From an uncultured Pelagibacteraceae bacterium (GTDB taxonomy: Bacteria > Pseudomonadota > Alphaproteobacteria > Pelagibacterales > Pelagibacteraceae), in assembly GCA_902572515.1 (NCBI GenBank), contig CACGGJ010000008.1, forward strand, positions 1 through 46,190: 46,190 bases of DNA. Reading direction: 5' to 3'. The notes below the pieces were generated by a model. The model saw only the letters and a list, made by a program, of their open reading frames with translations. It was not told the DNA's origin and made no database searches. Both the position numbers and the translations under genes were made by a program. Below are positions 1 to 30,517 of the stretch, piece by piece; position 1 is the first letter of the stretch; every line of letters begins with the position of its first letter.

Positions 1-764
1 AATTCTAAAACTTTGTCTCTCATTTCAAATGCTTTTTCAATCATAATCATATGGCCACAACCCTCGATTATGTGTGTAGATGAGTTGTTAATTAGACTAG
101 AAAATTTTTTTCCAGCTTCTAGATTTACCATTTTATCTAGAGAGCCAAAAATAAACATTGACGGAAATTCAATTAATTTAGCAGCTTCAGAACCATTTTT
201 GTAATTGTTACATGCAACAAGGTCCACCGCCAGTATGTCTCTTATGTCTCGAGGTGATTGTATTATTTTTTCTACTGGGTTACCTCCAATAAATCTTTTT
301 GAACCTTCATAACCCCACTTCATCATTAATTTAACAGCATCAGAGTCCCCATTTTTTGCTAGATCAATTAAATCTGGATGAACTGGCATCTTATTTGACC
401 CTCCGATAAAAACTAACTTTTTTAATCTATTTTTATATTTATGAGCATATTCAAGTATCTCCAAGCAACCTTGAGAATGACCAATTAAAATTAAATTATT
501 TAAATTAAGTTTATTAAAAACCTTCTCCAACCAATCAGCTATTTTTTCAATACTATCTAAGCAAGGGCCATCAGAATTACCATGCCCAGGTAAATCAATA
601 GATAATACGTTAAAATTATTATTTGAAAAAAACTGTTCAGTTAGAGACCAAACAATATGCGAAAGACCACTTCCATGAAGAAATACTATTGTTTCTTTAT
701 TTTGATCAATACCCTGTCCTGCATCAGACGCATAAACATTTTTATTTTCCAATTGAAAATTCAA
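1..764 (-). CDS. Alpha/beta hydrolase, 3' end cut by window edge
   Basis: About 254 residues of an alpha/beta-hydrolase-fold protein are visible; the C-terminus lies beyond base 1. The oxyanion-hole motif HGSG is at residues 30-33, the nucleophile elbow GHSQG puts Ser at about 97, the acid is Asp210 (FGSLD) and the catalytic His is His238 (GCGHM). This is a complete catalytic triad. No ATG begins the frame: an in-frame stop lies just upstream and the first usable codon is TTG at 764, six bases after AGG in the tail of the upstream ligase gene. TTG at 752 is a second choice. The gene sits 7 bases behind the dmdB-like fragment and probably shares its transcript. The substrate cannot be read from sequence; esterase, thioesterase or C-C hydrolase activity are all possible. 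Confidence 0.85.
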   Translation of the reverse strand, partial: MNFQLENKNVYASDAGQGIDQNKETIVFLHGSGLSHIVWSLTEQFFSNNNFNVLSIDLPGHGNSDGPCLDSIEKIADWLEKVFNKLNLNNLILIGHSQGCLEILEYAHKYKNRLKKLVFIGGSNKMPVHPDLIDLAKNGDSDAVKLMMKWGYEGSKRFIGGNPVEKIIQSPRDIRDILAVDLVACNNYKNGSEAAKLIEFPSMFIFGSLDKMVNLEAGKKFSSLINNSSTHIIEGCGHMIMIEKAFEMRDKVLE

Positions 765-771
765 AAATTAC

Positions 772-1776
772 CTAAACTTGTTTTCTTAATTCAAACTTTT
801 GTATTTTTCCTGTCGAAGTTTTTGGCAAATCACAGAACACAACCTTTTTAGGAACTTTAAATCCCGCTAAAGTTTCTTTACAAAAATCAATTAATTCTTT
901 TTCTGATACCGGCTTATCTTTAACCATTTCAATAAATGCACAAGGAACTTCTCCCCATTTTTCATCTGGTTTTGCAACAACTGCAGCAATAGAAACTGAT
1001 GGATGTTTAGAAAGTGTATTTTCTATTTCAATTGAAGAAATATTTTCTCCTCCAGAAATAATTATATCTTTTGATCTATCTTGTATTTTTACATACCCAT
1101 CAGGATGCATTACAGCTAAATCACCACTATGAAACCATCCATCTTTCATGGCTTTATCAGTAGCATCTTTGTCTTTAAAGTAACCTTTCATTACGACATT
1201 CCCTCTAATCATAATTTCACCAATTGTTTTTCCATCTTTAGGAACTTCTTTCATTGTTTCTGGATCCAAAACAACGACACCTTCAGTATTTGGATATCTC
1301 ACACCTTGCCTAGCCTTAATTTCATTTTGTTTTTCCTCATCGAACTTGTTCCATTCATCATTCCACGCACACTGAGTAACATGTCCATAAGTTTCCGTTA
1401 AACCGTATACATGCATAACTTCAAAACCTAATGCTCTCATTTTTTTAAAAATTATACTTGGTGGTGGCGCTCCAGCAGTCAAAACATAAACTTTTTGTTT
1501 TAATTTTTTTTTGTCACTTTCAGGAGCTCCTGTAATCATATTTAATACTATTGGGGCACCGCCAAAATGAGTTACTTCATATTTATCGATTAATTCAAAA
1601 ATTTTTTTTATGTCAATATTTCTTAAACAAATTGTCCTTCCGTTTAACATTGGAACCGTCCATGGATAACACCAACCATTACAATGAAACATTGGAACCA
1701 CTGTTAAAAAATTTAATCTATTTGGCATGTTCCAAGCTACCGAACTTCCTGTAGACATTAAATATGCACCTCTATG
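772..1776 (-). pseudogene. dmdB: Acyl-CoA ligase, DmdB-like, 5'-truncated
   Basis: This is the C-terminal portion of an AMP-forming acyl-CoA synthetase. Recognisable motifs are VYGLTETYG (A5), GWFHSGDLA (A7), RSKDIIISGGENIS (A8) and the A10 lysine in KTSTGKIQK. Family members are about 540 residues; only about 334 remain. Homology runs past the first ATG (1758) as HRGAYLM up to about 1776 and then stops abruptly. The missing N-terminal part includes the ATP-binding TSGTTGxPKG loop, so the product should be inactive. No frameshift or stop interrupts the retained part. The truncated dmdA lying head-to-head suggests methylmercaptopropionate-CoA ligase (DmdB), but the substrate is inferred. The truncation could be a real deletion or an assembly or amplification chimera. 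Confidence 0.85.
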
Positions 1777-2588
1777 ATGATAATGCTGGATTAATTAATG
1801 ATCCAGTTGTTTTAAGAATTAATGAAAATAAATGGTGGATTTCAATTGCAGATACGGACGTAATATTATTTGCAAAAGGATTAGCAATTGGAAATAAATT
1901 TGATGTTAAAATCATAGAGCCAAAAGTTGATATCATGGCTGTACAAGGTCCAAAATCATTTCAATTGATGGAAAAAGTATTTGGAGAACAGATCACAAAA
2001 TTAAAATTTTTTGGTTTTGATTATTTTGAATTTGGAGGTGCAAAACACCTTATCGCACAATCTGGATGGTCTAAACAAGGAGGTTATGAAGTATATGTTC
2101 AAAATACTGAAGCAGGCTTAAAACTATATGATCATTTATTTGAAATTGGAAAAGAATTTAATATTAAACCAGGGTGTCCTAATTTAATAGAACGAATCGA
2201 AAGTGGACTGTTATCTCATGGCAATGATATGGATAACGGAGATAATCCTTATGAATGTGGGTTTGATAAATATGTCAACCTAGATAGTGATGTTATTTTT
2301 TTAGGAAAAGAAAAATTAAAGAAAATAAAATCTGAAGGTATAAAAAGAAAATTAATGGGTGTGAAGTTAGATTTGGATAAAATAAGTTTAACAGGATCTT
2401 TAGATCTGGCTGATGATAATAACAAAATCATTGGGGAATTAAGGTCAGCCTGTTATTCGCCTCATTTTAAAAAAGTAATTGGTATTGCTATGATGAAAAA
2501 ATCGCATTGGAATATAGACCAGAACGTAAAAGCAAGCATAAATGGTGATATTTGTAGTGGTAAAGTTTGCGATTTACCTTTTATTTAG
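1764..2588 (+). pseudogene. dmdA: DMSP demethylase DmdA, 5'-truncated
   Basis: The translated part matches the body of the SAR11 dimethylsulfoniopropionate demethylase as I know it: [71 protein letters not shown], ending in VCDLPFI. DmdA belongs to the GcvT fold and transfers a methyl group from DMSP to tetrahydrofolate. The family length is about 370 residues; this frame gives 274, so about 95-100 N-terminal residues are missing. The first codons (ATG CAC CTC) are antisense to the dmdB fragment and have no ribosome-binding site, so the ATG at 1764 is not a genuine start. The intact frame up to the join implies a very recent deletion or an artefact. It is followed 15 bases later by asd. Confidence 0.88.
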
Positions 2589-2603
2589 TATAACAACTTT
2601 AAA

Positions 2604-3599
2604 ATGAACATAGCTATAGTAGGTGCAACAGGAAATGTTGGGAGAAAAACTCTTGAAGTATTTGATAAAAAAAACTTTAAGTTTGATAATCTATATTTAG
2701 TTGCCTCAGAAAAAAGTGCAGGAAAAAAAATCTCTTTTAGAGATAATGAGTATGTTGTTGAAAATTTAGAGACATATGATTTTTCAAAAGCAGATATAAC
2801 TTTTTTTGCAGCAGGAGGAAAAATTGCTGAAAAATTTGCAGAAAAGGCTGCCAAGCACACAATTGTAATAGATAATTCAAGTTTTTTTAGGATGGATCCT
2901 GATGTTCCATTGATCGTTCCACAAGTGAATGCAGCCGAAATTAAAAATATGAAAAAAAATATTATTGCCAATCCAAATTGTTCTACAGCACAACTTGTTA
3001 TAGCACTTAAACCACTACATAATTTATTCAAAATTAAAAGAGTTGTAGTTTCAACTTACCAATCTGTTTCAGGTGGTGGTAAAAGTCCAATGGACGAATT
3101 AATTGATCAAACTAAACAATATTTAGATGGAAAAAAAATACAGTCAAAAAATTTTACTAAACAAATCGCTTTTAATGTTATTCCACATATCGATGTTTTT
3201 GCTGATGATGGATATACAAAAGAAGAATTAAAAATGACAAATGAAACAAAAAAAATCTTAGATGAGTCAATTGAACTTACAGCTACATGTGTAAGAATTC
3301 CTGTTTTAGTATCTCATTCGGAGTCTGTAAATATAGAATTTGAAAAACCATATACTTTAGAAAAAGTGAGAGATGTTTTAAGTAAAGCAGATGGTTGTGA
3401 GGTTATTGATAAAAGAGAAAATGGAGGTTATAGCACACCATTTGAAGCAGCTGGGAGTGATGAGACATATATATCTAGAATTAGGGAAGACAAAACTAAA
3501 AAGAATTCGTTAAATTTGTGGATTGTATCAGACAACCTATTGAGAGGTGCTGCACTTAATTCTGTTGAAATTGCTGAAACAATTATTAATTCAAAATAA
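2604..3599 (+). CDS. asd: Aspartate-semialdehyde dehydrogenase
   Basis: This enzyme makes L-aspartate-4-semialdehyde from aspartyl phosphate with NADPH, the branch point to lysine/diaminopimelate, threonine and methionine. The N-terminal nucleotide-binding motif is GATGNVG (residues 7-13). The catalytic cysteine is Cys126 in NPNCSTAQ. The C-terminal half has the substrate-binding RIPVLVSHSE segment. The length of 331 residues is normal for the family. It starts 15 bases after dmdA and ends 3 bases before sdhC, so it probably shares transcription with its neighbours. Its product leads to homoserine, the substrate of the metX product encoded further along this window. Confidence 0.96.
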   Translation: MNIAIVGATGNVGRKTLEVFDKKNFKFDNLYLVASEKSAGKKISFRDNEYVVENLETYDFSKADITFFAAGGKIAEKFAEKAAKHTIVIDNSSFFRMDPDVPLIVPQVNAAEIKNMKKNIIANPNCSTAQLVIALKPLHNLFKIKRVVVSTYQSVSGGGKSPMDELIDQTKQYLDGKKIQSKNFTKQIAFNVIPHIDVFADDGYTKEELKMTNETKKILDESIELTATCVRIPVLVSHSESVNIEFEKPYTLEKVRDVLSKADGCEVIDKRENGGYSTPFEAAGSDETYISRIREDKTKKNSLNLWIVSDNLLRGAALNSVEIAETIINSK

Positions 3600-3602
3600 A
3601 AT

Positions 3603-3983
3603 ATGGAAAACAGACCTTTATCACCACACATACAGATTTATAAATGGCATATTTCTTCATTAGTATCTATTTCACACAGAATTACAGGAATAATTAATTT
3701 TTTTGCAATCACATTAATTTGTATTTGGTTTGCATTAATGCTTCTAGGAGAAAGTAATTATCAAATTATTAAAAATTTTTTAGAAACTTTTTTAGGTAAA
3801 TTTATTTTAATTGGAATAACCTGGTCATTTAGTTTTCAAATGTTAAGTGAAGTAAGACACTTGATTATGGATTTAGGTTATGGATTTGAATTACAAACAA
3901 CAAAAATTACAGGTTTGTTAGTTATTTTTGGTTCGATTGTTTTAACTATCTTAATTTATTTAATTGGCAGAGGATTAATATAA
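3603..3983 (+). CDS. sdhC: Succinate dehydrogenase cytochrome b556 subunit
   Basis: A 126-residue membrane anchor of respiratory complex II. The N-terminus has the family signature RPLSPHIQIYKW followed by SISHRITG. Three hydrophobic segments follow, and RHLIMDLG near residue 83 carries the expected haem-ligand histidine. It holds the catalytic subunits on the inner membrane and helps form the haem b and quinone site. Its stop codon overlaps the sdhD start by one base (TAATG), which points to translational coupling. The sdhC-sdhD-sdhA-sdhB order is standard for alphaproteobacteria. Confidence 0.95.
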   Translation: MENRPLSPHIQIYKWHISSLVSISHRITGIINFFAITLICIWFALMLLGESNYQIIKNFLETFLGKFILIGITWSFSFQMLSEVRHLIMDLGYGFELQTTKITGLLVIFGSIVLTILIYLIGRGLI

Positions 3984-4312
3984 TGCTTCCAGTAACAAAA
4001 AAATGGTTATTCTTAAAAATTAGTTCCGCAATCTTATTACCTTTAATGCTTTGGTTTATTGTAAATTTAGTAAATATCTATGACAAAAGTTACTTTGAAA
4101 TAGTGAATTTTTTAACAACACAACCATCTAAATTCCTAATTGGATTATTTTTAGTTATTGCTTATTTTTTTTCAGCTTTGACTATAAGTGAGGTTTTTGA
4201 AGACTATATTAACGATAAAAAAACCAAAAATGCCGCAAACAAAGTCCTAAATTTTTTTGCTATAACAATTCCGGTAATTACAATAATTGTAATTTTTAAC
4301 TTAAATACATGA
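3983..4312 (+). CDS. sdhD: Succinate dehydrogenase membrane anchor subunit
   Basis: A 109-residue hydrophobic protein with three predicted transmembrane stretches, lying between sdhC and sdhA. Sequence similarity within this family is weak, so the assignment leans on position, size and topology. The EVFEDYI segment near residue 71 resembles the conserved Asp-Tyr pair of SdhD quinone sites. I do not see the canonical haem-ligand His of the second helix with certainty. The gene overlaps sdhC by one base and sdhA by four (ATGA), typical of a tightly coupled four-gene operon. Confidence 0.88.
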
Positions 4313-6084
4313 AAGCATATAATATTATAGACCATGAGTACGATGTTGTTGTACTTGGTGCAGGTGGATCAGGTTTACGAGCGGCAGTAGGGCTCAGCGA
4401 AGCTGGCTTAAAAACAGCTTGTATCTCAAAAGTATTTCCTACCAGAAGTCATACATCAGCTGCACAAGGCGGAATATCAGCAGCACTAGGAAACATGGGA
4501 GAAGATGATTGGAGATGGCACATGTATGACACTGTAAAAGGTGCAGATTGGTTAGGTGATCAAGATAGTATTGAATATCTTTGTAAAGAAGCACCTAAAG
4601 CAGTTTTAGAGTTAGAGAAATATGGAGTTCCATTTAGCAGAACTGAAGAAGGAAAAATTTATCAAAGACCATTTGGTGGAATGACAAAAAATTATGGAAA
4701 TGGAATAGTTCAAAGAACTTGTGCAGCAGCCGATAGAACAGGACATGCAATTTTACACACATTATATGGACAAGCGTTAAAGCATAATACAGAATTTTTT
4801 ATAGAATATTTTGCATTAGATTTGTTGATGAAGAATGGAGAATGCAAAGGTCTAATTGCTTGGAATTTGAATGATGGCACAATTCATAGATTTAGAGCGC
4901 ACACAGTAATTATTGCTACTGGTGGTTATGGAAAAGTTTATTATTCAGCAACATCAGCACATACTTGCACTGGTGATGGTAATGCAATGGTTTTAAGAGC
5001 TGGATTACCGCTTCAGGATATGGAGTTTGTTCAATTTCACCCAACAGGAATTTATGGCCACGGTACCTTAATAACAGAAGGTGCGCGAGGAGAAGGGGGT
5101 TATCTTACAAATTCTAAAGGTGAAAGATTTATGGAAAGGTATGCTCCAAATGCAAAAGATTTAGCATCAAGAGATGTTGTTAGCAGATCTATGTCTATTG
5201 AGATTAATGAGGGTAGAGGTGTTGGAAAAGATCAAGATCATGTTCATTTGAACCTAAGTCACTTAGATAAAGATATTATTGAAAGCAGGCTTCCTGGAAT
5301 TACTGATGCAGCAAGATTATTTGCAAATGTAGATGTAACTAAAGAACCAATTCCTGTTGTACCAACAGTTCATTATAATATGGGTGGTATTCCGACAAAC
5401 TATAAAGCAGAAGTATTAACTGTAAATGGCTCAGAAAAAACTGTTCCAGGTTTAATGGCTATAGGAGAAGCGGCATGTGTCTCTGTTCACGGAGCAAATA
5501 GACTTGGTTCTAATTCTTTAATTGATCTAGTAGTATTTGGAAGAGCAGCAGCAAAAAGAGCAGCTGAATTAGTTAAGCCAGGAACACCTCATGAGGAAAT
5601 TCCTGAGTCAGAAACACAAAAATGTTTAGATAGATTTGATAAACTTAGAAATGCACAAGGAAATAATAGTACTGCTGAACTTAGACTTTCAATGCAAAAA
5701 ACGATGCAGTCGAAATGTGCAGTTTTTAGAACAGAAAAAAATCTTAAAGAAGGCGTTAATGAGATTAAAAAAACCTATGATGGTATGGACTCAATTTCAG
5801 TTAAAGATAGGTCTTTAGTATTTAATACTGATTTAGTTGAAACATTAGAATTTGATAATTTAATAAGACAAGCAGTAACTACTGTAGAATCTGCATATCA
5901 TAGAAAAGAGAGCAGAGGAGCTCACGCGAGAGATGACTATCCAAAAAGAGATGACGAAAAGTTTATGCAACATACTCTTGCTTGGTGTGATGGAAAAAAT
6001 ACAAAAATTAGTTACAGAGCAGTACACAAATCAACTTTAACAAATGAAGTTCAATATTTTCCACCACAAGAGCGAGTATATTAA
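4309..6084 (+). CDS. sdhA: Succinate dehydrogenase flavoprotein subunit
   Basis: The catalytic subunit of complex II, oxidising succinate to fumarate and passing electrons to SdhB. The FAD-binding GAGGSG is at residues 17-22, and His48 in [12 protein letters not shown] is the expected covalent FAD attachment site. [20 protein letters not shown] and [11 protein letters not shown] supply the substrate and flavin contacts of the family. The length of 591 residues is usual. It begins inside the sdhD stop (ATGA) and its TAA overlaps the sdhB ATG by one base. Confidence 0.98.
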
Positions 6085-6863
6085 TGGTTCAGCTAAGCTT
6101 ACCTAAAAATTCAAAGGTTAAAAAAGGCAAATATTTTAAAGACAAAACTGGATCTAAAAATTTAAGAAAAATAAATATTTATAGATGGGATCCATCGACA
6201 GAAGAAAATCCTAGGATTGATACATACGAAGTTGATATGGATAATTGTCCATCTAAGGTGCTGGATATTTTAAATAAAATTAAAAACGAAATTGATCCTA
6301 CATTGGCCTATAGAAGGTCTTGTGCTCATGGTGTTTGTGGTTCTTGTGCTATGAATATGGGAGGAAAAAACGGACTAGCCTGCACAACTCCTCATGCAGA
6401 GATAGACGGTGACATCGATATTTATCCTCTACCTCATTTAAAAGTTAAAAGAGATTTGATTGGTGATTTAGATGGCTTATATAAACAATATCAATCTATT
6501 GAACCTTGGTTAAAAAATAACTCAACAAAACAGACAACAGAAATTTATCAGTCTAAAGAAGATAGAGCAAAACTTGATGGTGCTTACGAATGCATTATGT
6601 GTGCTTGCTGTTCTACATCTTGCCCAAGTTATTGGTGGAATGGAGATAAATATTTAGGTCCAGCAGTCCTGCTACAGGCTTATAGATGGATTATTGATAG
6701 TAGAGATGAAGAGAGAAAAGCTAGATTAAAAAAAGTTTCTGATGAATTAAAATTATATAGATGCCACACAATATTAAATTGTACAAATGCATGTCCAAAG
6801 GGCTTGAATCCAGCAAAAGCTATAGCTGAAATAAAAAAAATGTTAGCAACAGCTAATGTTTAA
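6084..6863 (+). CDS. sdhB: Succinate dehydrogenase iron-sulfur subunit
   Basis: This subunit carries electrons from SdhA to the membrane quinone site. All cluster ligands are present: 2Fe-2S at Cys80, Cys85, Cys88 and Cys100; 4Fe-4S at Cys170, Cys173, Cys176 and Cys180; and 3Fe-4S from Cys180, Cys227 and Cys233, with Cys237 completing the last motif ([12 protein letters not shown]). At 259 residues it is a standard length. It is the last gene of sdhCDAB. The following 39 bases to mmsA hold no terminator that I can see. Confidence 0.98.
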
Positions 6864-6902
6864 ATAGACTATTCGATATTTTTGATCTAAAACACCGTAT
6901 TC

Positions 6903-8396
6903 ATGAAATTAATAGAACACTTCGTAAACGGTAAAATAATTCCGGGATCTTCAGATAAAAAAGGAAAAGTTTTTAATCCAGCAACTGGTGAGCAAGAGTC
7001 AGAGGTAAGACTTGCCTCAAGATCTGACTTAGATAGTGCTGTTGAGGAAGCAAAAAAAGCATTTGAAACTTGGTCTTTAAAACCTGCTCTTCAAAGAGCT
7101 AGAATAATATTTAAATTTAAAGAATTAATTGAAAAAAATTCTGATGAATTAACGAAGTTAATAGTTTCAGAACATGGAAAAGTTTATGAAGATGCAAGAG
7201 GATCTTTAACCAGAGGACTTGAGGTGGTAGAATTTGCTTGTGGAATACCACATTTATTAAAAGGTGAGTTTTCAGAAAATGTTGGTACCAATGTTGATAG
7301 TTGGTCAATCAGACAACCATTAGGAGTTGTTGCAGGTATCACACCTTTTAATTTTCCTGCTATGGTACCAATGTGGATGTTTCCAATAGCAATAGCTTGT
7401 GGAAATACTTTTATTCTTAAACCATCAGAAAAAGACCCTTCTTGTTCAATAAGATTGGCAGAACTACTTTCTGAAGCGGGTCTTCCAGAAGGAGTATTTA
7501 ACGTAATAAATGGAGATAAAGAAGCTGTTGATGCAATTTTAGAAAACAAAGATATCAAAGCAGTTAGTTTCGTAGGATCTACTCCTATTGCAAAATATAT
7601 TTATGAAAATTCAGCTAAAAATGAAAAAAGAGTTCAAGCTTTGGGTGGAGCAAAAAACCATTTAGTTGTTATGCCAGATTGTGATTTAGATGGTGCAGTA
7701 AATGGTTTAATGGGTGCTGCTTATGGTTCAGCTGGAGAAAGATGTATGGCTCAATCAGTTGCGGTTGCGGTTGGAGATATCGGTGATGAACTTGTATCAA
7801 GATTATCAAAAAAAGCTGAAGCTTTAAAAGTTGGTCCTGGAATGGATAAAGCATCAGAAATGGGACCTTTAGTTACAAAAGAACATTTAGAAAAAGTTAC
7901 AAGTTACGTTGATTTAGGTGTCAAGGAAGGCGCAAAGCTAGTGGTTGATGGAAGAGGTTTAAAACTTCAAGGTTATGAAAATGGTTTCTATATAGGTGGA
8001 TGTTTATTTGATCATGTAAATAAAGATATGAGAATTTACCAAGAAGAAATATTCGGTCCAGTCTTATCAGTTGTTCGAGTAAAAACTTTTGAAGAAGCTG
8101 CAAAATTAATCAACGACCATGAGTACGGAAATGGAGTTAGTATTTATACAAGAGACGGTGATGCAGGCAGAACTTTTGCAAGTAAAATTCAAGTAGGTAT
8201 GGTTGGTATTAACGTGCCGATCCCAGTTCCAATGGCATTTCATAGTTTTGGTGGTTGGAAAAGATCATTATTTGGAGATAGCGGAATGCATGGTATGGAA
8301 GGAATAAAATTTTATACTAAACTTAAAACTGTAACATCTAGATGGCCTTCAGGTGTCCGATCAAATGCGGAATTTGTTATGCCAACAATGAAATAA
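6903..8396 (+). CDS. mmsA: Methylmalonate-semialdehyde dehydrogenase (CoA-acylating)
   Basis: A 497-residue member of the aldehyde dehydrogenase superfamily with the MmsA signature: ITPFNFPAMVPMWMFP around residues 146-161, GGAKNH at 249-254 and the catalytic Cys281 in GSAGERCMAQ. MmsA enzymes convert methylmalonate semialdehyde or malonate semialdehyde to propionyl-CoA or acetyl-CoA, in catabolism of valine, beta-alanine, inositol or acrylate-type carbon. The sequence does not tell which substrate is used. Its position between sdhB and mdh places it in the TCA-cycle block, which would suit a route feeding acyl-CoA into the cycle. The start ATG has no obvious ribosome-binding site. Confidence 0.92.
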   Translation: MKLIEHFVNGKIIPGSSDKKGKVFNPATGEQESEVRLASRSDLDSAVEEAKKAFETWSLKPALQRARIIFKFKELIEKNSDELTKLIVSEHGKVYEDARGSLTRGLEVVEFACGIPHLLKGEFSENVGTNVDSWSIRQPLGVVAGITPFNFPAMVPMWMFPIAIACGNTFILKPSEKDPSCSIRLAELLSEAGLPEGVFNVINGDKEAVDAILENKDIKAVSFVGSTPIAKYIYENSAKNEKRVQALGGAKNHLVVMPDCDLDGAVNGLMGAAYGSAGERCMAQSVAVAVGDIGDELVSRLSKKAEALKVGPGMDKASEMGPLVTKEHLEKVTSYVDLGVKEGAKLVVDGRGLKLQGYENGFYIGGCLFDHVNKDMRIYQEEIFGPVLSVVRVKTFEEAAKLINDHEYGNGVSIYTRDGDAGRTFASKIQVGMVGINVPIPVPMAFHSFGGWKRSLFGDSGMHGMEGIKFYTKLKTVTSRWPSGVRSNAEFVMPTMK

Positions 8397-8405
8397 AGGA
8401 AATAA

Positions 8406-9368
8406 ATGACAAAGATATCTTTAATTGGTGCAGGCCAAATAGGTGGAACTCTTGCACATTTAATAGGAACAAAAGAACTAGTTAATGAAGTGGTTTTATT
8501 TGACGTAGCTAGTGGTATTGCAAAAGGAAAGGCATTAGATATTGCTCAATCTTCTTCAGTAGATGGATTTAATGTTAGGTTTTCAGGAACTGATGACTAT
8601 GAGGACATAAAAGATTCAGATGTAATAATAATTACAGCAGGTGTTCCAAGAAAACCTGGAATGAGCCGAGACGATCTTCTTGGAATTAATTTAAAAATTA
8701 TTAAACAAGTTGCTGAGGGGGTAAAGAAAAATGCTCCTAACGCTTTTGTGATCTGTATCACCAATCCTTTAGATGTTATGGTTATGGCATTTCAAAAATT
8801 TTCAGGTTTGCCATCAAATAAAGTTGTTGGTATGGCTGGTATTTTAGATAGTTCGAGATTTAAATTATTTTTATCATTAGAACTAAATGTGCCAGTAAGA
8901 GAAATTGAGGCAATGGTTATGGGTGGTCATGGTGACACCATGGTTCCTATGCCAAGATTTACAAAAATTTCAGGTAAACCATTGCTGGATCTTGTAAAAG
9001 ATGGAAAGATTTCTTTAGAAAGAGTTGAGGAAATTAATCAAAGAACGCGAGATGGTGGTGCGGAAATAGTTAAATATTTAGAAAAAGGATCAGCCTTTTA
9101 TGCACCAGCAGCTTCAGGTGTTCAAATGGCAGAAGCATATTTAAATGATCAGAAAAAATTATTACCCTGCGCTGTACAATTAAATGGAGAATATGGTGTG
9201 AAAAATGTTTATGCGGGTGTTCCCGTTGTCATTGGAAAAGATGGTGTAGAAAAAATTGAAGAGATTGATTTAGATGAAAAAGAAAAAAAAGAATTTATGC
9301 ATTCAATAGATGCTGTAAAAGCTTTATGGGAAGCTGCATCTAAAATAGATCCTGATTTATCTAAATAA
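8406..9368 (+). CDS. mdh: Malate dehydrogenase
   Basis: NAD-dependent malate dehydrogenase of the LDH-like family typical of alphaproteobacteria, 320 residues. The Rossmann motif GAGQIGG is at residues 8-14. The active-site loop [13 protein letters not shown] (about residues 78-90) carries the arginines that select dicarboxylates over lactate. The catalytic His175 lies in [18 protein letters not shown]-type sequence just before the ATG is a plausible ribosome-binding site. It sits between mmsA and sucC, consistent with the common alphaproteobacterial mdh-sucCDAB arrangement. Confidence 0.97.
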
Positions 9369-9370
9369 TA

Positions 9371-10531
9371 ATGAATATTCACGAGCATCAAGCTAAACAA
9401 ATATTAAAAAAATATGGAGCTGTAGTTCCCGAAGGAGTATTTGCACTTAATGTTGATGAACTTATTCAAAAAGTAAAAGCACTCAAAACTGAGAAATATG
9501 TGCTTAAAGCACAAATCCATGCTGGAGGAAGAGGAAAAGCTGGTGGTGTAAAAATTTTAAACTCTATCGAGGAACTAACAGTAGCAGCTAAAGAATTACT
9601 AGGAAAAACACTAGTTACTCATCAAACTGGCCCTGAAGGTAGAGAGGTAAAAAGATTATATGTAGAAGAATCATCAAATATAGATAAAGAATTTTACTTA
9701 TCGTGCCTGGTTGATAGGGCAAGTTCTAAAATTGCATTTATATCAAGTGACCAAGGAGGGATGGACATTGAAGAAGTTGCAAGCAGTTCACCTGATAAAA
9801 TTATTACTACAAAAGTTGATATGACTGATAAAATTTCTGAGTCAGATTGTGAAAAAATAATTAATATTTTTAATTTAAATGAAGACGCAAAAAAACAAGC
9901 AATAACATTAATTAAATCAATATATAAAATGTTTGTGAGTACCGATGCTAACATGGTTGAAGTAAATCCATTAATTTTGACAAAAGAGGAAAAAATTGTT
10001 TGTTTAGATGCAAAAGTTAATTTCGACTCTAATGCTTTATTCAGGCATCCAGAAATTGTTGAATTAAGAGATTTAAATGAGGAAGATCCTACCGAGATAG
10101 AAGCTAGCAAGCATGATCTTGCATATATCAAGCTAGATGGAAGTATTGGCTGTATGGTGAATGGAGCAGGATTGGCGATGGCAACAATGGATATAATTAA
10201 ATTGTATGGTAAAGAGCCAGCAAATTTTTTAGATGTAGGTGGTGGCGCATCCAAAGAAAAAGTATCTGCCGCATTAAAGATAATTCTTTCAGATAAAAAT
10301 GTTAAAGGTATTTTAATTAATATTTTTGGAGGAATAATGAGATGTGATGTCCTTGCTCAAGGAGTAGTTGATGCAGCTAAAGAAATTAATATTAGTGTAC
10401 CTTTAGTTGTTCGATTAGCAGGCACAAATTTCAAAGAAGGGAAGGAAATTCTTGATAATTCTGGATTAAAATTAATTTCTGCAGAAAATTTAGATGATGC
10501 TGCTAAGAAAATTGTTGAGGCTATAAAATAA
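9371..10531 (+). CDS. sucC: Succinyl-CoA synthetase beta subunit
   Basis: An ATP-grasp subunit of the enzyme that converts succinyl-CoA to succinate while making ATP or GTP. The N-terminus [16 protein letters not shown] is the family signature. [10 protein letters not shown] (about residues 53-62) is the nucleotide-binding glycine-rich segment, EVNPLIL near 200 supplies Mg-binding residues, and [10 protein letters not shown] lies in the CoA-ligase domain. The length of 386 residues is standard. It starts 2 bases after mdh and ends 1 base before sucD. Confidence 0.98.
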
Positions 10532-10532
10532 A

Positions 10533-11408
10533 ATGTCGGTTTTGGTAAATAAAAATACTAAAGTAATTTGTCAGGGATTTACTGGCTCACACGGAACATT
10601 TCATTCAGAGCAAGCTATAAAATATGGAACCAATCTTGTTGGTGGAGTTACGCCAAAGAAAGGTGGACAAAAACATTTAGATAGACCGGTTTTTAATAGT
10701 GTTTTAGAGGCAAAAAATGAAGTAGGAGCAGATGCAACTATGATTTATGTACCTGCTAAATTTGCAGCAGCAGCAATCATTGAAGCTATTGATGCATCAA
10801 TTGAACTTATTGTTTGTATAACAGAGGGAATTCCAATTCAGGATATGCTTAAGGTCAGACAAAAATTAAGTGGATCTAGTAGCAGATTAATTGGACCTAA
10901 TTGTCCAGGAATAATCACACCAGATGAATGTAAAATTGGCATTATGCCGGGAAGTATTCACAAAAGAGGAAGTGTTGGAATTGTATCGAGGTCAGGTACA
11001 TTGACATACGAAGCTGTAGCACAAACAACTGAAAATGGACTTGGTCAATCAACTTGTATTGGTATAGGTGGTGATCCTATTAATGGAACAAATTTTATAG
11101 ATTGCTTAGATTTATTTTTAAATGATGATGAAACAGAATCTATTTTAATGATAGGTGAAATTGGAGGAACAGCCGAAGAAGAAGCAGCTGACTTTATAAA
11201 AAATCATAAGATTAAAAAACCAATAGTTGGATTTATAGCTGGAATTACTGCTCCTCCAGGAAGGAGAATGGGGCATGCTGGTGCTATTATATCAGGTGGC
11301 AAGGGTGGAGCAGAAGATAAAATAAAAAAAATGCAAGAATGTGGTATTACAGTTGCTAAATCACCATCAATTATTGGAAAAACTTTATTTGATAAACTGT
11401 CTAATTGA
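10533..11408 (+). CDS. sucD: Succinyl-CoA synthetase alpha subunit
   Basis: This subunit binds CoA and carries the phosphorylated histidine. His248 lies in [10 protein letters not shown], the family active-site motif. [12 protein letters not shown] near residues 15-26 is the CoA-binding loop, and GPNCPG is at 121-126. The length of 291 residues is normal. It pairs with sucC one base upstream. Thirty-five bases separate it from sucA; that gap holds GAGGGATATATTAAAT, which is too far from the sucA ATG for an ideal Shine-Dalgarno and might instead contain a weak promoter -10. Confidence 0.98.
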
Positions 11409-11443
11409 AAAAAAATATTAGAGGGATATATTAAATAAAAAAG

Positions 11444-14362
11444 ATGTCTTCATCAAAAAATCTTGATTTCGAAAAAACTTCATTTTTAAACAAATCTAAT
11501 AGTGCATTTATAGAGGAAATGTATTTAAAGTTTGTTAATAAAGATGCTGATCTTCCAGAAAGTTGGGCAAATTATTTTGAGGGAATTGGTGAAGAATTAA
11601 ATGTTATAGCAAAAGAAATTAATGGCCCATCATGGGGACCTACTAGAAAAAAGATTGATATTGATGAATTACAAAAAAAAATAGAAGAACAAGATAAAAA
11701 TGATTTTGATAATGTCAAATTAGACACTTCAGAAAAATTTAATTTTCAATTACTTGCTGACTCAAATAAAGACTCTATTAGTGCTGTAGCATTAATTAGA
11801 GCATATAGACTAAGAGGACATTTATTAGCAGATCTTGATCCTTTAGAAATGAGAGAGTCAGAATATTTAGATGAGCTTCACCCAGATTTTTATGGTTTTA
11901 AAAAAGAAAACTACGATAAGAAAATTTTTCTAAACGGTATAATTAATCGTAAATATGCAAATATAAGAGAAATACTTAAGTTTATGAAGAAGACCTATTG
12001 TGGAAAAATAGGTTATGAGTTCATGCATATCTCAAACCCAGATGAAAGAAAGTGGTTTAGAGACAGGATAGAGCAAGATAAAAATGCACTCCAATTTACA
12101 AAAAATGGTAAAGAGGCAATTTTAAATAAATTAGTACAGGCAGAAGGATTTGAAAAATTTTTAGCTACAAAGTATGTGGGAACAAAAAGATTTGGTTTAG
12201 ATGGTGGTGAAAGTTTAATACCTGCTCTTGAACAAATAATCAAAATTGGTGGCCAAAATAATATAAAAGAAGTTAAAATAGGCATGTCTCATAGAGGCAG
12301 ACTTAACGTTTTGGCAAACGTTTTACAAAAATCTTATAAAAAAATTTTTAATGAGTTTGCTGGTGAGTTTAGTACTAATTCTGAAGATAGTGCTGGAGAT
12401 GTAAAGTATCATCTTGGAGCGTCGTCTGATAGAGAATTTGATGGAAACTCAGTACACGTCAGTTTAACAGATAATCCTTCTCATTTAGAAGCTGTTAACC
12501 CAGTTGTTTTGGGACAAACAAGAGCCAAACAATTTTTTCACAAAGACCGTGAAAGAAATAAAGTTATACCAATTCTCATTCATGGGGATGCAGCTTTTGC
12601 TGGACAAGGAGTTGTAGCAGAATGTTTTGCAATGTCTGGATTACCAGGACACAACACTGGAGGAACAATTCATATTATTGTTAATAATCAGATAGGATTT
12701 ACTACTAGTCCAAGATTTGCAAGGTCTTCACCTTATCCATCTGATGTTGCAAAAATGGTAGAGGCACCGATCCTTCATGTTAATGGTGATGATCCAGAAG
12801 CAGTTGTTTATGCAACCAGAATAGCAACAGAATTTCGATTAAAATTTAATAGAGACGTTGTAGTAGATTTAATTTGTTATAGAAGATTTGGACACAATGA
12901 GGGAGATGAGCCTTCATTTACTCAACCTTTAATGTATAAAAAAATTAGATCTCATCCCAGTGTTTACAAAATTTATGGAAATAAATTAGTAAACGAAAAA
13001 TCTATTACTGAAGAATTATTAAATCAAAATGTTAAATCGTTTAAAGATTTACTTGATGAACAATATAAAAGTGCAAAAGATTATAAACCTAAAATAGAAT
13101 GGTTTGAAGGAACATGGTCAAGATATAAACCTGAAAGGGGTAAAGATAAAAGGGGCATAACAGGTTTTGAAGAAAATAAATTAAAAATAATTTCAGATAA
13201 AATAAATAGTATTCCTGAGGAAAAAAATATTCATAAGACTATCTCTAAAATATTTAATGCTAGAAAAGAAAGTATCGAAAAAGGTACTGGTATTGATTGG
13301 TCTTCAGCTGAATCTTTAGCGTTTGGATCTTTGCTGGAAGAGGGATATCCAGTCAGACTTGTAGGACAAGACTCTGGAAGAGGAACATTTAGTCAACGAC
13401 ATTCTGTTTTAAGAAATCAAATAGATAATTCTAGGTACGTTCCTCTTAATAATATTTCTAAAAATCAAAAGCAATTTGAGGTAGTAGATAGTTTTTTATC
13501 TGAACTTGCAGTTTTAGGTTTTGAATATGGTTATAGTTTAGTAGAGCCAAACACTCTTACTCTTTGGGAAGCACAATTCGGTGACTTTGCTAATGGAGCC
13601 CAAGTAGTAATTGATCAATTTATTGCATCTGGTGAGAGAAAATGGAATAGAGCATCTGGTATAGTAATGTTGTTGCCTCATGGATATGAAGGACAAGGAC
13701 CAGAACATTCTTCAGCAAGATTAGAAAGATTTTTACAACTATGCTCAAACGATAATATGCAAGTAATGAACTGCACAACTCCAGCAAATTATTTTCATGC
13801 TTTAAGAAGACAAATGCATAGGAGTTTTAGAAAGCCACTAATCATAATGACACCAAAATCATTATTAAGAAATAAGTATTGTGTTTCAAATTTAGAGGAT
13901 TTTAACAAAAAAAATACTTTCCATAGAGTATTGTGGGATCATGCCATCGATCCTAAGTCTAAAGGATTTATTAAACTAAAAGAAAGTTCTAAAATAAGAA
14001 AAGTAATTCTTTGTTCTGGAAAAGTATATTTTGATTTGTTAGATGCCAGAGAAAAGCTCAAAAGAGATGATGTAGTGATGTATAGAATTGAACAATTATA
14101 TCCATTTCCAGCAAAAGCTTTGGTTAAGGAGTTAAAACCATATGCTGAAAATGCTGAATTCTTTTGGTGCCAAGAAGAACCAAAAAATATGGGTGCTTGG
14201 TTTTCAGTTAGAGATTATATCCAATGGACATTAGACACTTTAAAGGCTAATAATAATAAAATTTCTTATATAGGAAGAAGCCCAGACGCAACTCCTGCAA
14301 CAGGATATGCCAAAAGGCACAATTCTCAACAACAAGAAATAATTAACAAGGTATTTGATTAA
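11444..14362 (+). CDS. sucA: 2-oxoglutarate dehydrogenase E1 component
   Basis: A 972-residue thiamine-diphosphate enzyme that decarboxylates 2-oxoglutarate and passes the succinyl group to the lipoyl arm of SucB. The N-terminal segment [12 protein letters not shown] with SWANYFEG is the short E2-interacting region. [29 protein letters not shown] and [20 protein letters not shown] are the TPP and substrate-binding core. The C-terminal domain has [20 protein letters not shown] and [12 protein letters not shown]. Length and motif order match the family. It is followed 5 bases later by sucB. Confidence 0.98.
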
Positions 14363-14367
14363 TTTTA

Positions 14368-15657
14368 ATGAGTGAAAAAATAGTAGTCCCAGTTCTAGGT
14401 GAAAGTATAACAGAAGCGACTGTTGCAAAATGGTTGAAAAACGCAGGTGATACAGTCGAAGCAGATGAACCAATTGTAGAACTTGAGACAGACAAAGTAA
14501 ATTTAGAAGTGCCATCCCCAATTTCTGGTGTGTTAACAGAGATAAATTCACAAGATGGATCAGTCGTTGAAGTAGGAGCATTATTAGGTTCTGTATCAGC
14601 CGAAGGTGGAACAGCGGTTAAATCTGCACCGAAAATCAGTGAAGAAACAAAGAAAGAGGAAATTATTCCTGGAGAGAGCAATGTAATAAAATTAGATGCA
14701 AATAAAAAAGAACCAAAAGTATTTGAAGAAAAACCCAAAGAGAAACCTTTGGTTTTAACTGAGGAAGTTAAACCAGATGTTGCTCCAAAAAGAGATGTTA
14801 ATCCAACTTTATCTCCAGCAGTGAGAAAAATTGTAACTGAAAATAATATCGATATTAATTCAATTCAAGGTTCAGGAAAAGGTGGGAGAGTTTTAAAAGG
14901 AGATTTAATAAGTTTGATGGGTGCAAATCCAAAACCATCTGAAAGAAAAATTCAATATGGTGAAGAAGAACGAATTAAAATGACTAGGTTGAGACAGACT
15001 ATTGCAAAAAGATTAAAGCAAGCTCAAGAGAATGCTGCTCTTTTAACAACATTTAACGAAGTTGATATGAGTAGTGTAATGGAAATGAGGAAAGAAAATC
15101 AAGAGGATTTCCAATCTCGTTATAGAATAAAATTAGGATTTATGTCTTTCTTTGTAAAAGCATGTGTAGTTGCTTTAAAAAATTTCCCTGCAGTTAATGC
15201 TGAAATTGATGGTGATGAGATAATATATAAAAATTATTACAATATTAGTTTTGCTGTTGGAACAGATAAAGGCTTGGTTGTTCCAGTTTTAAAAAATGCA
15301 GATGAATTATCCTTTGCTGATATTGAAAAAAATATTAAAGAAATTTCAGAAAAAGCGCGAGATGGAAAGCTAACGATTGAAGATCTCCAGGGAGGAACAT
15401 TTACAATAAGTAATGGAGGTGTGTATGGGTCCATGCTTTCAACACCAATACTAAATTTACCTCAGTCTGGTGTGTTGGGAATGCATAATATAGTAGAAAG
15501 ACCTATTGTTGTAGATGGTGAAATCAAAATAAGACCAATTATGTATTTAGCATTATCATATGATCATAGAATTATTGATGGAAAAGAGTCTGTATCTTTC
15601 CTTAAAATGATTAAAGAAAATTTAGAAGACCCTAGAAGGTTGTTTTTAGATATTTAA
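14368..15657 (+). CDS. sucB: Dihydrolipoyl succinyltransferase, E2 of 2-OGDH
   Basis: Three-part E2 chain of 429 residues. A single lipoyl domain covers residues 1-78 with the lipoylated Lys43 in [12 protein letters not shown] lysine/proline/glutamate-rich linker follows, then a peripheral subunit-binding domain at about 145-185 (LSPAVRKIV...[11 protein letters not shown]). The catalytic domain runs to the end, with His400 and Asp404 in SYDHRIIDG. Position after sucA and before lpdA supports the 2-oxoglutarate complex over the pyruvate complex. The sucB stop abuts the lpdA start with no gap. Confidence 0.97.
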
Positions 15658-17058
15658 ATGTCAGAAAAATTTCAAGCTGTAGTTATTGGAGGTGGACCGG
15701 GTGGTTATGTCTGTGCAATTAGACTTGCTCAATTAGGATTAAAAACTGCATGTATAGAGTCTAGAGGGTCTTTGGGAGGTACTTGTTTAAACGTTGGTTG
15801 TATCCCATCAAAAAGCTTACTTAATCTGTCTGAAGAATTTCATAAAGTAAAAAATTTAGCAAACAAAGGTATTGAAGTTGGTGAAGTAAAATTAAATTTA
15901 GACAAAATGATGAAAAGCAAAGATAAAGCTGTAACAGTTCTTACCAAAGGTGTTGAATTTCTTTTGAAAAAAAACAAAGTTAGTTACTTTAAAGGACACG
16001 GAAGTTTTAAATCAAAAAATGAAATTTTAATAAAGGATGATAAAAATAAAGAAACTGTCATCCAATCAGAAAAAACAGTTATTGCAACAGGATCAGTTCC
16101 AGTTTCATTACCAGGAATAGAAATAGATGAGAAAATAATTGTCTCATCAACAGGTGCCTTAAAGTTAGAAAAGGTACCTAAGAAAATGGTTGTAGTAGGA
16201 GGAGGTTATATAGGATTGGAGATGGGATCTGTATGGTCTAGACTTGGAGCAGAGGTGCAAGTTGTTGAATTTTTAGATCATATTACACCTGGAATGGATA
16301 AAGAAATTTCTTCAGAATTTATGAAAATTTTAAAAAAACAGGGTATGAAATTTAATATGCAAAATAAAGTTGAAACAATTAAAAAAAATGCAGCAGGTGC
16401 AGTGGTTTCAACAGTAGATAAAGATGGCAATAAAAATAATTTTGAGTGTGATGTTGTTTTAATCTCTGTTGGCAGAAAACCTAATACAGATGGTTTAAAT
16501 TTAGAATCTGTAGGAATAGATCTTGATGAAAGAAATAGAATTAAAACTGATAAAATTTTTAAGACTAACGTTGAAAACATTTATGCAATAGGCGATGTAA
16601 TTGTTGGTCCAATGCTTGCACACAAAGCGGAGGACGAAGGTATAGCAGTTGCAGAAAACATAGTTGGTCAATCTGGACATGTAAATTATGATACAATTCC
16701 AGGAGTAGTCTATACAACACCAGAAGTAGCATCAATCGGTAAAACTGAGGAACAATTAAAAGAATTAAATAAAAAATATAAAGTAGGGAAATTTTCGTTT
16801 ATGGCCAATTCAAGAGCCAAGGCCATTGATGATGCAGAAGGTTTTGTTAAAATTTTAGCTGATGAGCAAACAGATAAAGTATTAGGTGCACATATAATTG
16901 GACCTCATGCAGGAGAATTAATTGCAGAGATTGGTGTTGCAATGGAATTTGGTGCAAGTGCAGAAGATATTGCCCGAACTTGTCATGCTCATCCAACGTT
17001 TTCTGAAGCAGTTAAAGAAGCTGCTTTATCAGTAGATAAAAGAGCAATACACTCTTAA
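15658..17058 (+). CDS. lpdA: Dihydrolipoamide dehydrogenase (E3)
   Basis: FAD/NAD flavoenzyme that reoxidises the dihydrolipoyl arm of SucB and possibly of other complexes. [10 protein letters not shown] at residues 11-20 binds FAD. The redox disulfide is Cys43-Cys48 in [13 protein letters not shown] second Rossmann motif, [11 protein letters not shown], binds NAD near residue 181. His445 and Glu450 in [13 protein letters not shown] form the C-terminal catalytic dyad. The length of 466 residues is standard. It is the last gene of the TCA block; the next 22 bases hold a T-run and the inverted repeat that overlaps the priA start. Confidence 0.98.
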
Positions 17059-17063
17059 TTTTT

Positions 17064-17086
17064 TTTCATATTATAAAAATATGAAA
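17064..17086 (+). repeat. Inverted repeat over the priA start codon
   Basis: TTTCATATT (17064-17072) and AATATGAAA (17078-17086) are perfect 9-base complements with a 5-base loop. The 3' arm contains the priA ATG at 17081. In RNA this would be an all but GC-free hairpin covering the start codon, so it might damp priA translation or mark the end of the TCA transcript. In a genome this AT-rich a chance origin is also possible. Confidence 0.4.
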
Positions 17087-19036
17087 TATCCGATTCTTGT
17101 ACCAAATATTTTTAATCATCCATTTACTTATGAAAGTAATTTAACTCTTAAAGTTGGAGATTATGTAATTGTACCTTTTGGAAAATCAAAAATTACTGGT
17201 GTTGTTTGGGACGAATTTGAAAAAAATAATAATAAAAATTTTAAGACTAAAAAGGTAATCAAGAAATTAGACGTTACTCCATTAAAAAAAAATACAATTA
17301 ATTTTTTAAATTGGTTTGCAGAATATAATCTTATCCCAAAAGGTATGGCATTAAAGTTAGTGCTCTTAAGTAGTGACGCGGTAGAGAACAAAGAAACTCA
17401 ACTTTATCAAATATTTGATAGCAAAATTAAGCAAAACTTAATCAAGCTGTCTAGTGATCAAAATAAATCTCTAAAAAAAATGAATGTTTCAAATAAAAAA
17501 TTTAGAGTTCATGTTTTACAAGGCACAACCGGATCAGGAAAAACTTTAGTTTATTTTGAAGCATTAAAACCACTGATAGAGAAGGGTTTTCAAGGATTAA
17601 TTTTATTACCAGAAATAGGTTTAACTAGTCAGTTTGAACAAAAATTTTTAGAATATTTTGGTTTTAAGCCCGCAGTTTGGCACTCAGGTATTTCAAAAAA
17701 AAAGAAAGAATTAATTTGGAGTGGCGTTTCTAATGGTAAAATAAAAATAATTATTGGTGCAAGGTCATCATTATTTTTACCATTTAAAAAATTAGGTATG
17801 ATAATTGTTGATGAGGAACATGATCAATCATTTAAACAAGATGAAGGCATAACCTACAATGCTCGTGATATGGCAATTTCTAGAGCATCTTTTGAAAACA
17901 TTCCAATAAATTTGATTACTGCTGTTCCTTCAATAGAAACTTTTGAAAATATTAAAAAGGGTAAATACGAGGTTTCTAGATTAAATGAAAGATATCAAAA
18001 CGCAGCTTTACCTAATTATGAAATTATTAATTTAAATAATACCAAACTTGAAAAACAATCATGGCTATCAAATAAAATTATTGAAAAAGTTAATTTACAT
18101 TTGGAAAAAAAAGATCAAGTTTTGTTTTTTTTAAACAGAAGAGGTTTTTCTCCAAATGCTTTATGTAATAAGTGTTTTACGAGTTTTACATGTCCAAATT
18201 GTAGTATCAATTTAGTTTATCATAAAAATAAAAATAACTTATTATGTCATTATTGTGGATACAAATCCGATCTTAAAAGGGACTGTACAAAAGAAGGCAA
18301 TTGTGAATTTATTTTTAGCGGCCCTGGTGTTGAGAGAATTTCAGAAGAGGTAAAAAGAAAATTCCCTGGAAAAAAAATAGAGATTTTTTCAAGTGACACA
18401 ATGAATAAAAAAGATTCTAAAGAAAAAATAGATAAAATTATTAATAATGAAACGCATATTTTGGTTGGAACTCAATTAATTTCAAAAGGTTTTCATTTTC
18501 CAAGTTTAAATTGTATTGTAGTTGTTGATATCGATCTTTCATCTCAAGGACATGATTTAAGAGGTGCAGAAAAAAATTTGCAGCTTTATCATCAACTTTC
18601 AGGACGTGCAGGAAGAACAGGAAAGCCAGCAACAGTATATTTTCAAACTTATGAAAATAATACTAAGATGATTTCAGAAATTACAAGTAAAAATCCAGAT
18701 ATTTTTTTAGAAAGAGAACTAGAGATAAGAAAAAAAAATAAACTACCTCCATTTCAAAGGTTTATTTCTTTAATCTTAACAGGAGATAATGAAATTAAAT
18801 TAGAAAAAGAAGCTATTAATTTTAAAAATTTCATTGAAAATAAAATTGAAGGAAAAATATTAGGGCCTGTGAATGCCCCATTATTTAGATTAAAGAGAAA
18901 ATTTAGAATTAGATTTTTAATCAGAGGCTTAAAATCCATGAAACTACAAAGCTCTCTTGCAAAAATTATTCCAAAATATAAATTTTCTTCTGGAATAAAA
19001 CTTTCAGTTGATGTTGATCCAATTAACTTCAATTAA
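17081..19036 (+). CDS. priA: Primosomal helicase PriA
   Basis: A replication-restart helicase of 651 residues that reloads the replisome at stalled forks. An N-terminal DNA-binding domain is followed by Walker A GTTGSGKT at 148-155 and Walker B DEEH in IIVDEEHDQSFKQDEG. A zinc-binding module lies around residues 360-410 with paired cysteines (CNKC, CPNC, CHYC and two later cysteines). The helicase C-lobe contains GTQLISKGFHFP and QLSGRAGRTGK. At 651 residues it is somewhat shorter than E. coli PriA, but all functional modules are visible. The priA-atpHAGDC adjacency is common in alphaproteobacteria. A terminator-like hairpin follows. Confidence 0.97.
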   Translation: MKYPILVPNIFNHPFTYESNLTLKVGDYVIVPFGKSKITGVVWDEFEKNNNKNFKTKKVIKKLDVTPLKKNTINFLNWFAEYNLIPKGMALKLVLLSSDAVENKETQLYQIFDSKIKQNLIKLSSDQNKSLKKMNVSNKKFRVHVLQGTTGSGKTLVYFEALKPLIEKGFQGLILLPEIGLTSQFEQKFLEYFGFKPAVWHSGISKKKKELIWSGVSNGKIKIIIGARSSLFLPFKKLGMIIVDEEHDQSFKQDEGITYNARDMAISRASFENIPINLITAVPSIETFENIKKGKYEVSRLNERYQNAALPNYEIINLNNTKLEKQSWLSNKIIEKVNLHLEKKDQVLFFLNRRGFSPNALCNKCFTSFTCPNCSINLVYHKNKNNLLCHYCGYKSDLKRDCTKEGNCEFIFSGPGVERISEEVKRKFPGKKIEIFSSDTMNKKDSKEKIDKIINNETHILVGTQLISKGFHFPSLNCIVVVDIDLSSQGHDLRGAEKNLQLYHQLSGRAGRTGKPATVYFQTYENNTKMISEITSKNPDIFLERELEIRKKNKLPPFQRFISLILTGDNEIKLEKEAINFKNFIENKIEGKILGPVNAPLFRLKRKFRIRFLIRGLKSMKLQSSLAKIIPKYKFSSGIKLSVDVDPINFN

Positions 19037-19040
19037 CCGC

Positions 19041-19058
19041 AAAAAAGAGGCCTTTTTT
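19041..19058 (+). terminator. Rho-independent terminator after priA
   Basis: Seven-base arms AAAAAAG and CTTTTTT enclose the tetraloop AGGC, five bases after the priA stop codon. The 3' arm doubles as the U-tract. The stem is weak, with one G-C pair, but the symmetry and position are right for the end of the priA transcript, before the ATP synthase operon begins. Confidence 0.6.
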
Positions 19059-19071
19059 ACGAATCCGCTAC

Positions 19072-19100
19072 TTGAAGACATAAGGGTCATATGCTATTTA
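19072..19100 (+). promoter_or_regulatory. Candidate promoter for atpHAGDC
   Basis: TTGAAG (19072-19077) and TATTTA (19095-19100) are separated by 17 bases in the 86-base gap between the priA terminator and atpH. Each half matches the sigma-70 consensus only partly. An alternative -10, TATAAA at 19111-19116, lacks a good -35. The location supports a promoter here; the exact boxes are uncertain. Confidence 0.35.
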
Positions 19101-19144
19101 GGGCGTGATTTATAAATAATCTTCAACATTATAGAGGAACCAAG

Positions 19145-19702
19145 TTGAGTAAAGACACCGGATTTTCAATAACTTCAGCTGAAAGGTATTCTCTTGCGCT
19201 TTTTGAACTTTCAGAGGAAAACAATCTTTTAAGTCAGATCGAAGATCAGTCTTCATCTATTCTTAATTTAATTGAGCAAAGTGAAGATTTTTCTAATTTG
19301 ATTAAAGATCCAACTACAAGCCAAGAAGATTTATTAAAAGTAATCAATACAATCTCTGAAAATAATAAATTTGAGTCTTTATTTAAAAATTTTTTAAGTT
19401 TCTTAATTCAAAAAAGACGTTTCTTTTTTATTGAGCGTATCCTTAAAAGCTTTATTGAGATTTGTTCAAGAAAAAGAGGTGAACTTAAGGCAGAATTAAA
19501 ATCAGCAAAAGAATTATCTAATGAAGAAATTGCAAAAATTACAGAGGAGTTAACAAAAAATTTTAGCTCAAAAATAAAATTAAACTACAAACATGACGAA
19601 AGTTTAATAGGAGGTTTGGTAGTACAAGTAGGAAGTACTATGGTCGATACCTCAATTAAAAATAAATTACAACAAATCGAAAATAGAATGATAGAGGCAT
19701 AA
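19145..19702 (+). CDS. atpH: ATP synthase F1 delta subunit
   Basis: The stalk subunit (OSCP homologue) that links F1 to the peripheral stalk; 185 residues. The N-terminal AERYSLALFELSEE and the C-terminal DESLIGGLVVQVGSTMVDTSIK are the two family signatures. The start codon is TTG at 19145; AGAGGA a few bases upstream is a good Shine-Dalgarno and decides this start, and the product begins just before the conserved helix. It is the first gene of atpHAGDC and ends directly at the atpA ATG. The membrane F0 genes are not in this window, in keeping with the split F0/F1 operons of alphaproteobacteria. Confidence 0.95.
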   Translation: MSKDTGFSITSAERYSLALFELSEENNLLSQIEDQSSSILNLIEQSEDFSNLIKDPTTSQEDLLKVINTISENNKFESLFKNFLSFLIQKRRFFFIERILKSFIEICSRKRGELKAELKSAKELSNEEIAKITEELTKNFSSKIKLNYKHDESLIGGLVVQVGSTMVDTSIKNKLQQIENRMIEA

Positions 19703-21238: not shown

Positions 21239-21244
21239 TAATTT

Positions 21245-23537
<2,293 letters not shown>

Positions 23538-23538
<1 letters not shown>

Positions 23539-23930
23539 TGAGCGAAGAGTTTAAAGTTGAAATAGTAAATCCTGAAAAATCTTTTTTAGTAAAAGATGAT
23601 GTTTCAGAAGTTGTGGTCCCTGCTTTTGAAGGAGAGATGGGAATATTGAAGGATCATATTTCTATTATTTCCTTTTTGAAACCTGGGATAATTAAGATTT
23701 TATCAAAATCAGGTGATGAAAATTACTATGTTGAAGATGGAATTGTTGAGTTCAAAAATAACAATCTATCTATTTTAACAAGTACAATTTTTAATCTTGC
23801 CGATATAGATAAATCAAAGCAACAAGATTTGCTTAAACTGGCAGAAGAAGAGGCTAATAAAACCGATATTAACGATCAATCTAAATATTTAGCAGATCAA
23901 AAAGTTGAAGTTTTAAAAACTCTAAATTAA
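23538..23930 (+). CDS. atpC: ATP synthase F1 epsilon subunit
   Basis: A 130-residue rotor and regulatory subunit. The beta-sandwich domain shows VPAFEGEMGILKDHISIISFLKPG (residues about 28-51), the hallmark of epsilon. The C-terminal helical part is short and acidic, as in many alphaproteobacteria. It is the last gene of atpHAGDC. Its 3' end overlaps the 3' end of the convergent Nudix gene by 9 bases and there is no terminator between them. Confidence 0.95.
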
Positions 23931-24395: not shown

Positions 24396-24396
24396 A

Positions 24397-25883: not shown

Positions 25884-25900
25884 TAATTAATTTTAGATTA

Positions 25901-26422: not shown

Positions 26423-26423
26423 T

Positions 26424-27674: not shown

Positions 27675-29769
<2,095 letters not shown>

Positions 29770-29785
29770 TTAATTGGTTGTACTA

Positions 29786-30040: not shown

Positions 30041-30054
30041 AATTTACCTAATTA

Positions 30055-30453: not shown

Positions 30454-30479
30454 AGTATGATTTAATTTAAAGTTACCGC

Positions 30480-30507
30480 AATATAGTTGTAGACAGTCTT
30501 TAGTCAA
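30480..30507 (-). promoter_or_regulatory. Sigma-70 promoter for rplU-rpmA operon
   Basis: On the minus strand TTGACT (30507-30502) and TATATT (30485-30480) are 16 bases apart, each matching the consensus in five of six positions. The expected transcription start near 30473 leaves about 20 bases of leader before the rplU ATG at 30453. The promoter lies 10-11 bases past the gloB stop, so this run probably has its own promoter within continuous minus-strand transcription. Confidence 0.72.
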
Positions 30508-30517
30508 GCCGAATTAA

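Follow-up and report, generated by a model that had tools for sequence, protein, structure and literature searches.

Broken dmdB/dmdA pair at the edge of a Pelagibacteraceae contig: very probably nearby DNA flipped by a copying artefact, not a real gene loss

The window analysed here is the whole of contig C8 (46,190 bases), part of a draft Pelagibacteraceae genome whose 41 contigs add up to 1,167,165 bases (completeness 88.97%, contamination 0.21). Close to its left end two truncated genes on opposite strands meet at an abrupt join, 1776 bases (about 1.8 kb) from the contig end. The features are as follows, with codons numbered as in the intact genes and native coordinates taken from L012, the corresponding locus of the close relative AG-453-A11:

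Positions 1-1783, minus strand: inverted segment, corresponding to native L012:3918-5700 read backwards, holding most of the hydrolase and the 3' part of dmdB
Positions 3-764, minus strand: hydrolase gene, alpha/beta-hydrolase-like, an open reading frame with 254 of 258 codons that runs off the contig end
Positions 772-1783, minus strand: 3' part of dmdB (acyl-CoA ligase), open reading frame 772-1758, native codons 203-538 whole
Positions 1776-1783, no strand: 8-base microhomology GATGATAA, common to both sides of the join
Positions 1776-2588, plus strand: 3' part of dmdA, open reading frame 1764-2588, native codons 100-369 and stop

The initial annotation had read the two genes as a minus-strand acyl-CoA ligase, dmdB, and a plus-strand DMSP demethylase, dmdA, both truncated at one abrupt join, and the open reading frames and structure matches bear this out, with the join at 1776-1783. 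The ligase remnant matches structures 1ult and 6ihk/6ijb, the latter of which we take to be DmdB, from about chain residue 222-224 onward. The plus-strand frame matches chain residues 98-369 of 3tfh, presumably Pelagibacter DmdA, whose listing name is GcvT-like aminomethyltransferase. The name alpha/beta-hydrolase-like was given by eye from sequence alone. By codon count, retained dmdB starts inside native codon 202 of 538, leaving about 202 codons missing, and dmdA lacks 99 of its 369 codons; the estimates had been about 205 and about 95-100. Also as described before, the first codons of the apparent dmdA frame are antisense ligase: the ATG at 1764 that opens it sits in antisense ligase sequence and is not the native start.

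In close Pelagibacteraceae loci such as L012 the same genes are whole and stand in tandem on one strand, whereas in C8 they are broken. The native order is:

L012:1547-3310, acyl-CoA dehydrogenase-like gene, upstream of dmdB
L012:3313-4929, dmdB, intact
L012:4937-5713, hydrolase, intact, the homologue of the remnant in the window, between dmdB and dmdA
L012:5710-6819, dmdA, intact

At the DNA level the two pieces retained in C8 share 96.6-98.9% identity with loci L009-L021. The remnant frames are open in the list of reading frames, in line with the earlier observation of frames without stops or frameshifts. Compared with L012, the dmdB remnant differs at 7 synonymous and 1 nonsynonymous codons (336 codons), the dmdA remnant at 14 and 4 (270 codons) and the hydrolase remnant at 13 and 5 (254 codons), together 34 synonymous and 10 nonsynonymous in 860 codons. 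The three remnants thus show no sign of relaxed selection, which is compatible with an artefact or with a very recent event.

The comparison set of 108 loci consisted of the best 80 of at least 217 relatives and 28 further loci (L090-L117). The latter stem from 61 genomes, the window's own included, were selected on a close dmdA (59-82% identical) and take in only the 3' part of dmdB in the stored stretch; some of their genomes may duplicate those among the best 80. In all 108 loci dmdB and dmdA lie in tandem on the same strand, one of them (L112) in G012, a genome in a single contig with a listed completeness of 100%. The initial annotation had pictured two genes placed head to head, each stripped of its 5' part, with the intervening DNA lost as well. 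A deletion between genes natively facing each other would account for the geometry of the window taken alone, but with the genes in tandem in every one of the 108 loci (best 80 of at least 217 relatives plus 28) no head-to-head parent is known, and we consider this explanation the least probable of all, to the point of being negligible.

The hydrolase between the two genes is variable: 45 of the 108 loci (best 80 of at least 217 relatives plus 28) hold no match above 50% identity (L049, L055-L088, L092-L099, L110 and L117), with a dmdB-dmdA spacing of at most about 155 bases, and the remaining loci have it. In L034 and L035 (both 4936-5710) it is split over two frames, possibly by a frameshift or sequencing error. 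The dehydrogenase-like gene upstream of dmdB is likewise split over two frames in L042 (1-1654), near 1334-1341.

Nor are the left 1783 bases the other flank of a deletion, as had been supposed. In 27 of the 27 closest loci among the matches listed, window positions 1-1783 align by blastn on the minus strand with native 5700-3918, and in the same 27 loci the sequence starting at window position 1773 matches the plus strand from native 6003 onward (coordinates are shifted in L020 and L030, and one end is off by a base in L034 and L035). The inversion of the left segment was likewise found in all five whole genomes compared. The minus-strand match to 5700-3918 means that the left end of C8 carries, in inverted orientation, what natively lies just upstream of dmdA. 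Colinearity with the siblings extends over positions 1776-20000 and 26191-46190 for as long as the sibling contigs reach, and the coordinate offset in G423 is equal on either side of the intervening 20001-26190.

At the join the match to the dmdB strand extends to 1783 and that to dmdA begins at 1776, giving an exact overlap of 8 bases; the blastn stretches overlap up to 11 bases, with mismatches. In L012 the two native sites, 3918-3925 and 6007-6014, make GATGATAA a short inverted repeat, and the joined sites are about 2.1 kb apart in these coordinates. When inverted joins were drawn at random within L012:1-8431 (up to 400,000, dropping pairs less than 100 bases apart), the fraction sharing at least 8 bases was 0.0003 and the median was 0, and the 8-base overlap is therefore probably causal. 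The site itself is not special, since the same 8.4 kb hold 1382 maximal inverted repeats of at least 8 bases and 38 of at least 11. For a k-mer assembler an overlap of 8 bases is too short to create a join on its own, and hence the join was in the reads.

Short inverted repeats at both ends of a segment are also what a site-specific, switchable inversion turning DMSP demethylation on and off would present. Against it, the repeat arms are exact complements in just 26 of 45 loci (L009-L054 except L049, which lacks the hydrolase; among the matches listed) and hence not conserved, 1382 comparable repeats lie nearby, and the segment has a single orientation in 108 of 108 loci (best 80 of at least 217 relatives plus 28). 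This candidate was rejected on these three grounds as highly improbable.

When the genome's own assembly was searched with L012:1-6400, C8 gave native 3918-5700 (inverted) and 6007-6400 and contig C7 gave native 1-249 at its start, whereas native 250-3917 (3668 bases) and 5701-6006 (306 bases) were found nowhere in the assembly. The C7 end aside, C4 and C11 gave the only other matches, all short (36-54 bases). With native 1-249 at the C7 start and the other recovered stretches in C8, the two contigs are neighbours across a gap, and this gap is where the inverted piece belongs. The join thus coincides with an assembly gap, at which C7 also ends. Finding dmdA-dmdB intact somewhere in the assembly had been put forward as a sign of artefact; neither the native arrangement nor the missing 5' parts of dmdB and dmdA were found elsewhere in the assembly, the native flanks being absent altogether.

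These observations bear on the possibility that native 3918-6014, about 2.1 kb, was truly inverted in place in this cell or its lineage, an event mediated by the 8-base inverted repeat and breaking both genes. The inverted piece is exactly the inner side expected of such an event, and a native copy of the locus is found nowhere in the assembly. However, the arrangement occurs in none of the 108 loci (best 80 of at least 217 relatives plus 28), the join falls at an assembly gap and the assembly lacks the reciprocal junction, albeit along with both of its flanks. A 39-base junction pattern allowing up to 3 mismatches matched 10 of 399 genus genomes, of which only G000 exactly; the nine inexact matches all end in the native dmdB continuation, so that the join was found in none of the 398 other genus genomes by a pattern sensitive to close relatives only. 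Because C8 stops 306 bases short of the would-be second breakpoint, with both flanks of the reciprocal junction missing from the assembly, we leave the in-place inversion a small probability.

We regard it as very probable, by contrast with that inversion, that the join is an amplification chimera assembled at a coverage gap. What is observed directly is the inversion, the microhomology, the contig-end position, the missing flanks and the lack of a second example of the junction among the examined genomes; we infer the rest, namely the source of the assembly in an amplified single cell, the action of the polymerase and the condition of the genes in that cell. The closest relatives among the matches listed are AG- isolates with NODE contigs, which we take to be single amplified genomes of marine cells, some record titles being labelled MAG. 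The smallest contig of the assembly under study measures 2007 bp, compatible with the cut-off of a published single-cell pipeline. The AG- relatives and the contig size would fit the window's genome itself being a single amplified genome, while the MAG labels count against it.

The chimera could have arisen as follows. Phi29 polymerase would have amplified single-cell DNA, either by multiple displacement amplification (MDA) or in the WGA-X variant of that method. A 3' end in the course of elongation may then have been displaced and have paired, by means of 8 complementary bases (GATGATAA/TTATCATC), with another displaced strand nearby, about 2.1 kb off, and extension at the new site would have fused the 3' part of dmdA to the inverted dmdB-hydrolase piece. 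With the surrounding native copies not recovered, in a probable dropout between C7 and C8, the chimeric molecules would be the ones assembled, and the contig ends 1.8 kb past the join. The complete absence of the native flanks fits such an amplification dropout, in which only the chimeric copy would have been assembled. The cell itself most likely carried the ordinary tandem dmdB-hydrolase-dmdA.

Further inverted joins would strengthen the amplification reading, but no second chimera was found among the three other contig ends judged and the 80 sibling loci. No inverted join was seen at the far end of C8, the start of C7 or the start of C6. A scan of the 80 sibling loci (best 80 of at least 217 relatives; 970,752 bases), which detects only pieces with a native copy in those loci and in which the window served as positive control, also yielded no second inverted join. 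Both results count against a chimera.

Two other contigs deserve mention. In five sibling genomes nothing nearly identical to the start of C9 (L142:1-6000) was found; the best match, in one of them, reaches 70% over about 970 bases, and the C9 start is probably a variable genomic region. Contig C35 as a whole (L140:1-2882) has no match in the five sibling genomes, which suggests variable, mobile or foreign DNA.

The initial annotation had left the choice between a real, recent loss of DMSP demethylation and a chimera. Of the two the chimera is favoured; the loss is unsupported and should not be drawn from this contig. The broken dmdB/dmdA pair is most likely a copying artefact that flipped nearby DNA and not a real gene loss. 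This matters for surveys of gene content, in which this assembly could, through an amplification artefact, be scored as lacking DMSP demethylation or as encoding a shortened DmdA whose 5' end is false. Should a chance 8-base repeat after all have led to a true 2.1-kb inversion in one SAR11 cell, breaking dmdB and dmdA together, which we think improbable, that cell would be a natural DMSP-demethylation mutant that has lost the hallmark SAR11 sulfur route, while the examined relatives keep the genes.

Chimera formation is named as a limit of single-cell MDA in the consulted passages of Stepanauskas et al. 2017 (PMC5519541). The best point of comparison is the set of 475 MDA chimeras from one amplified E. 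coli cell described, in the consulted passages, by Lasken and Stockwell 2007 (PMC1855051). According to these passages 406 of the 475 were inverted, 337 of the 406 inverted ones joined segments less than 10 kb apart, complementary bases stood at the start in 93.5% of the inverted joins below 10 kb, and there was about one chimeric junction per 22 kb. The main type described there joins an inverted piece lying less than 10 kb off, at a short complementary site that serves for priming, and loses the bases in between. The join in C8 has each of these traits: an inverted segment, sites about 2.1 kb and thus less than 10 kb apart with loss of what lay between, and complementarity of 8 bases. As far as these passages go, the chimeras in E. 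coli are read-level events in amplified DNA with a known reference, unlike the present case of an assembled contig whose amplification we infer, and they share with it the inverted second segment from less than 10 kb away, the intervening loss and the short complementarity (8 bases here, up to 21 there).
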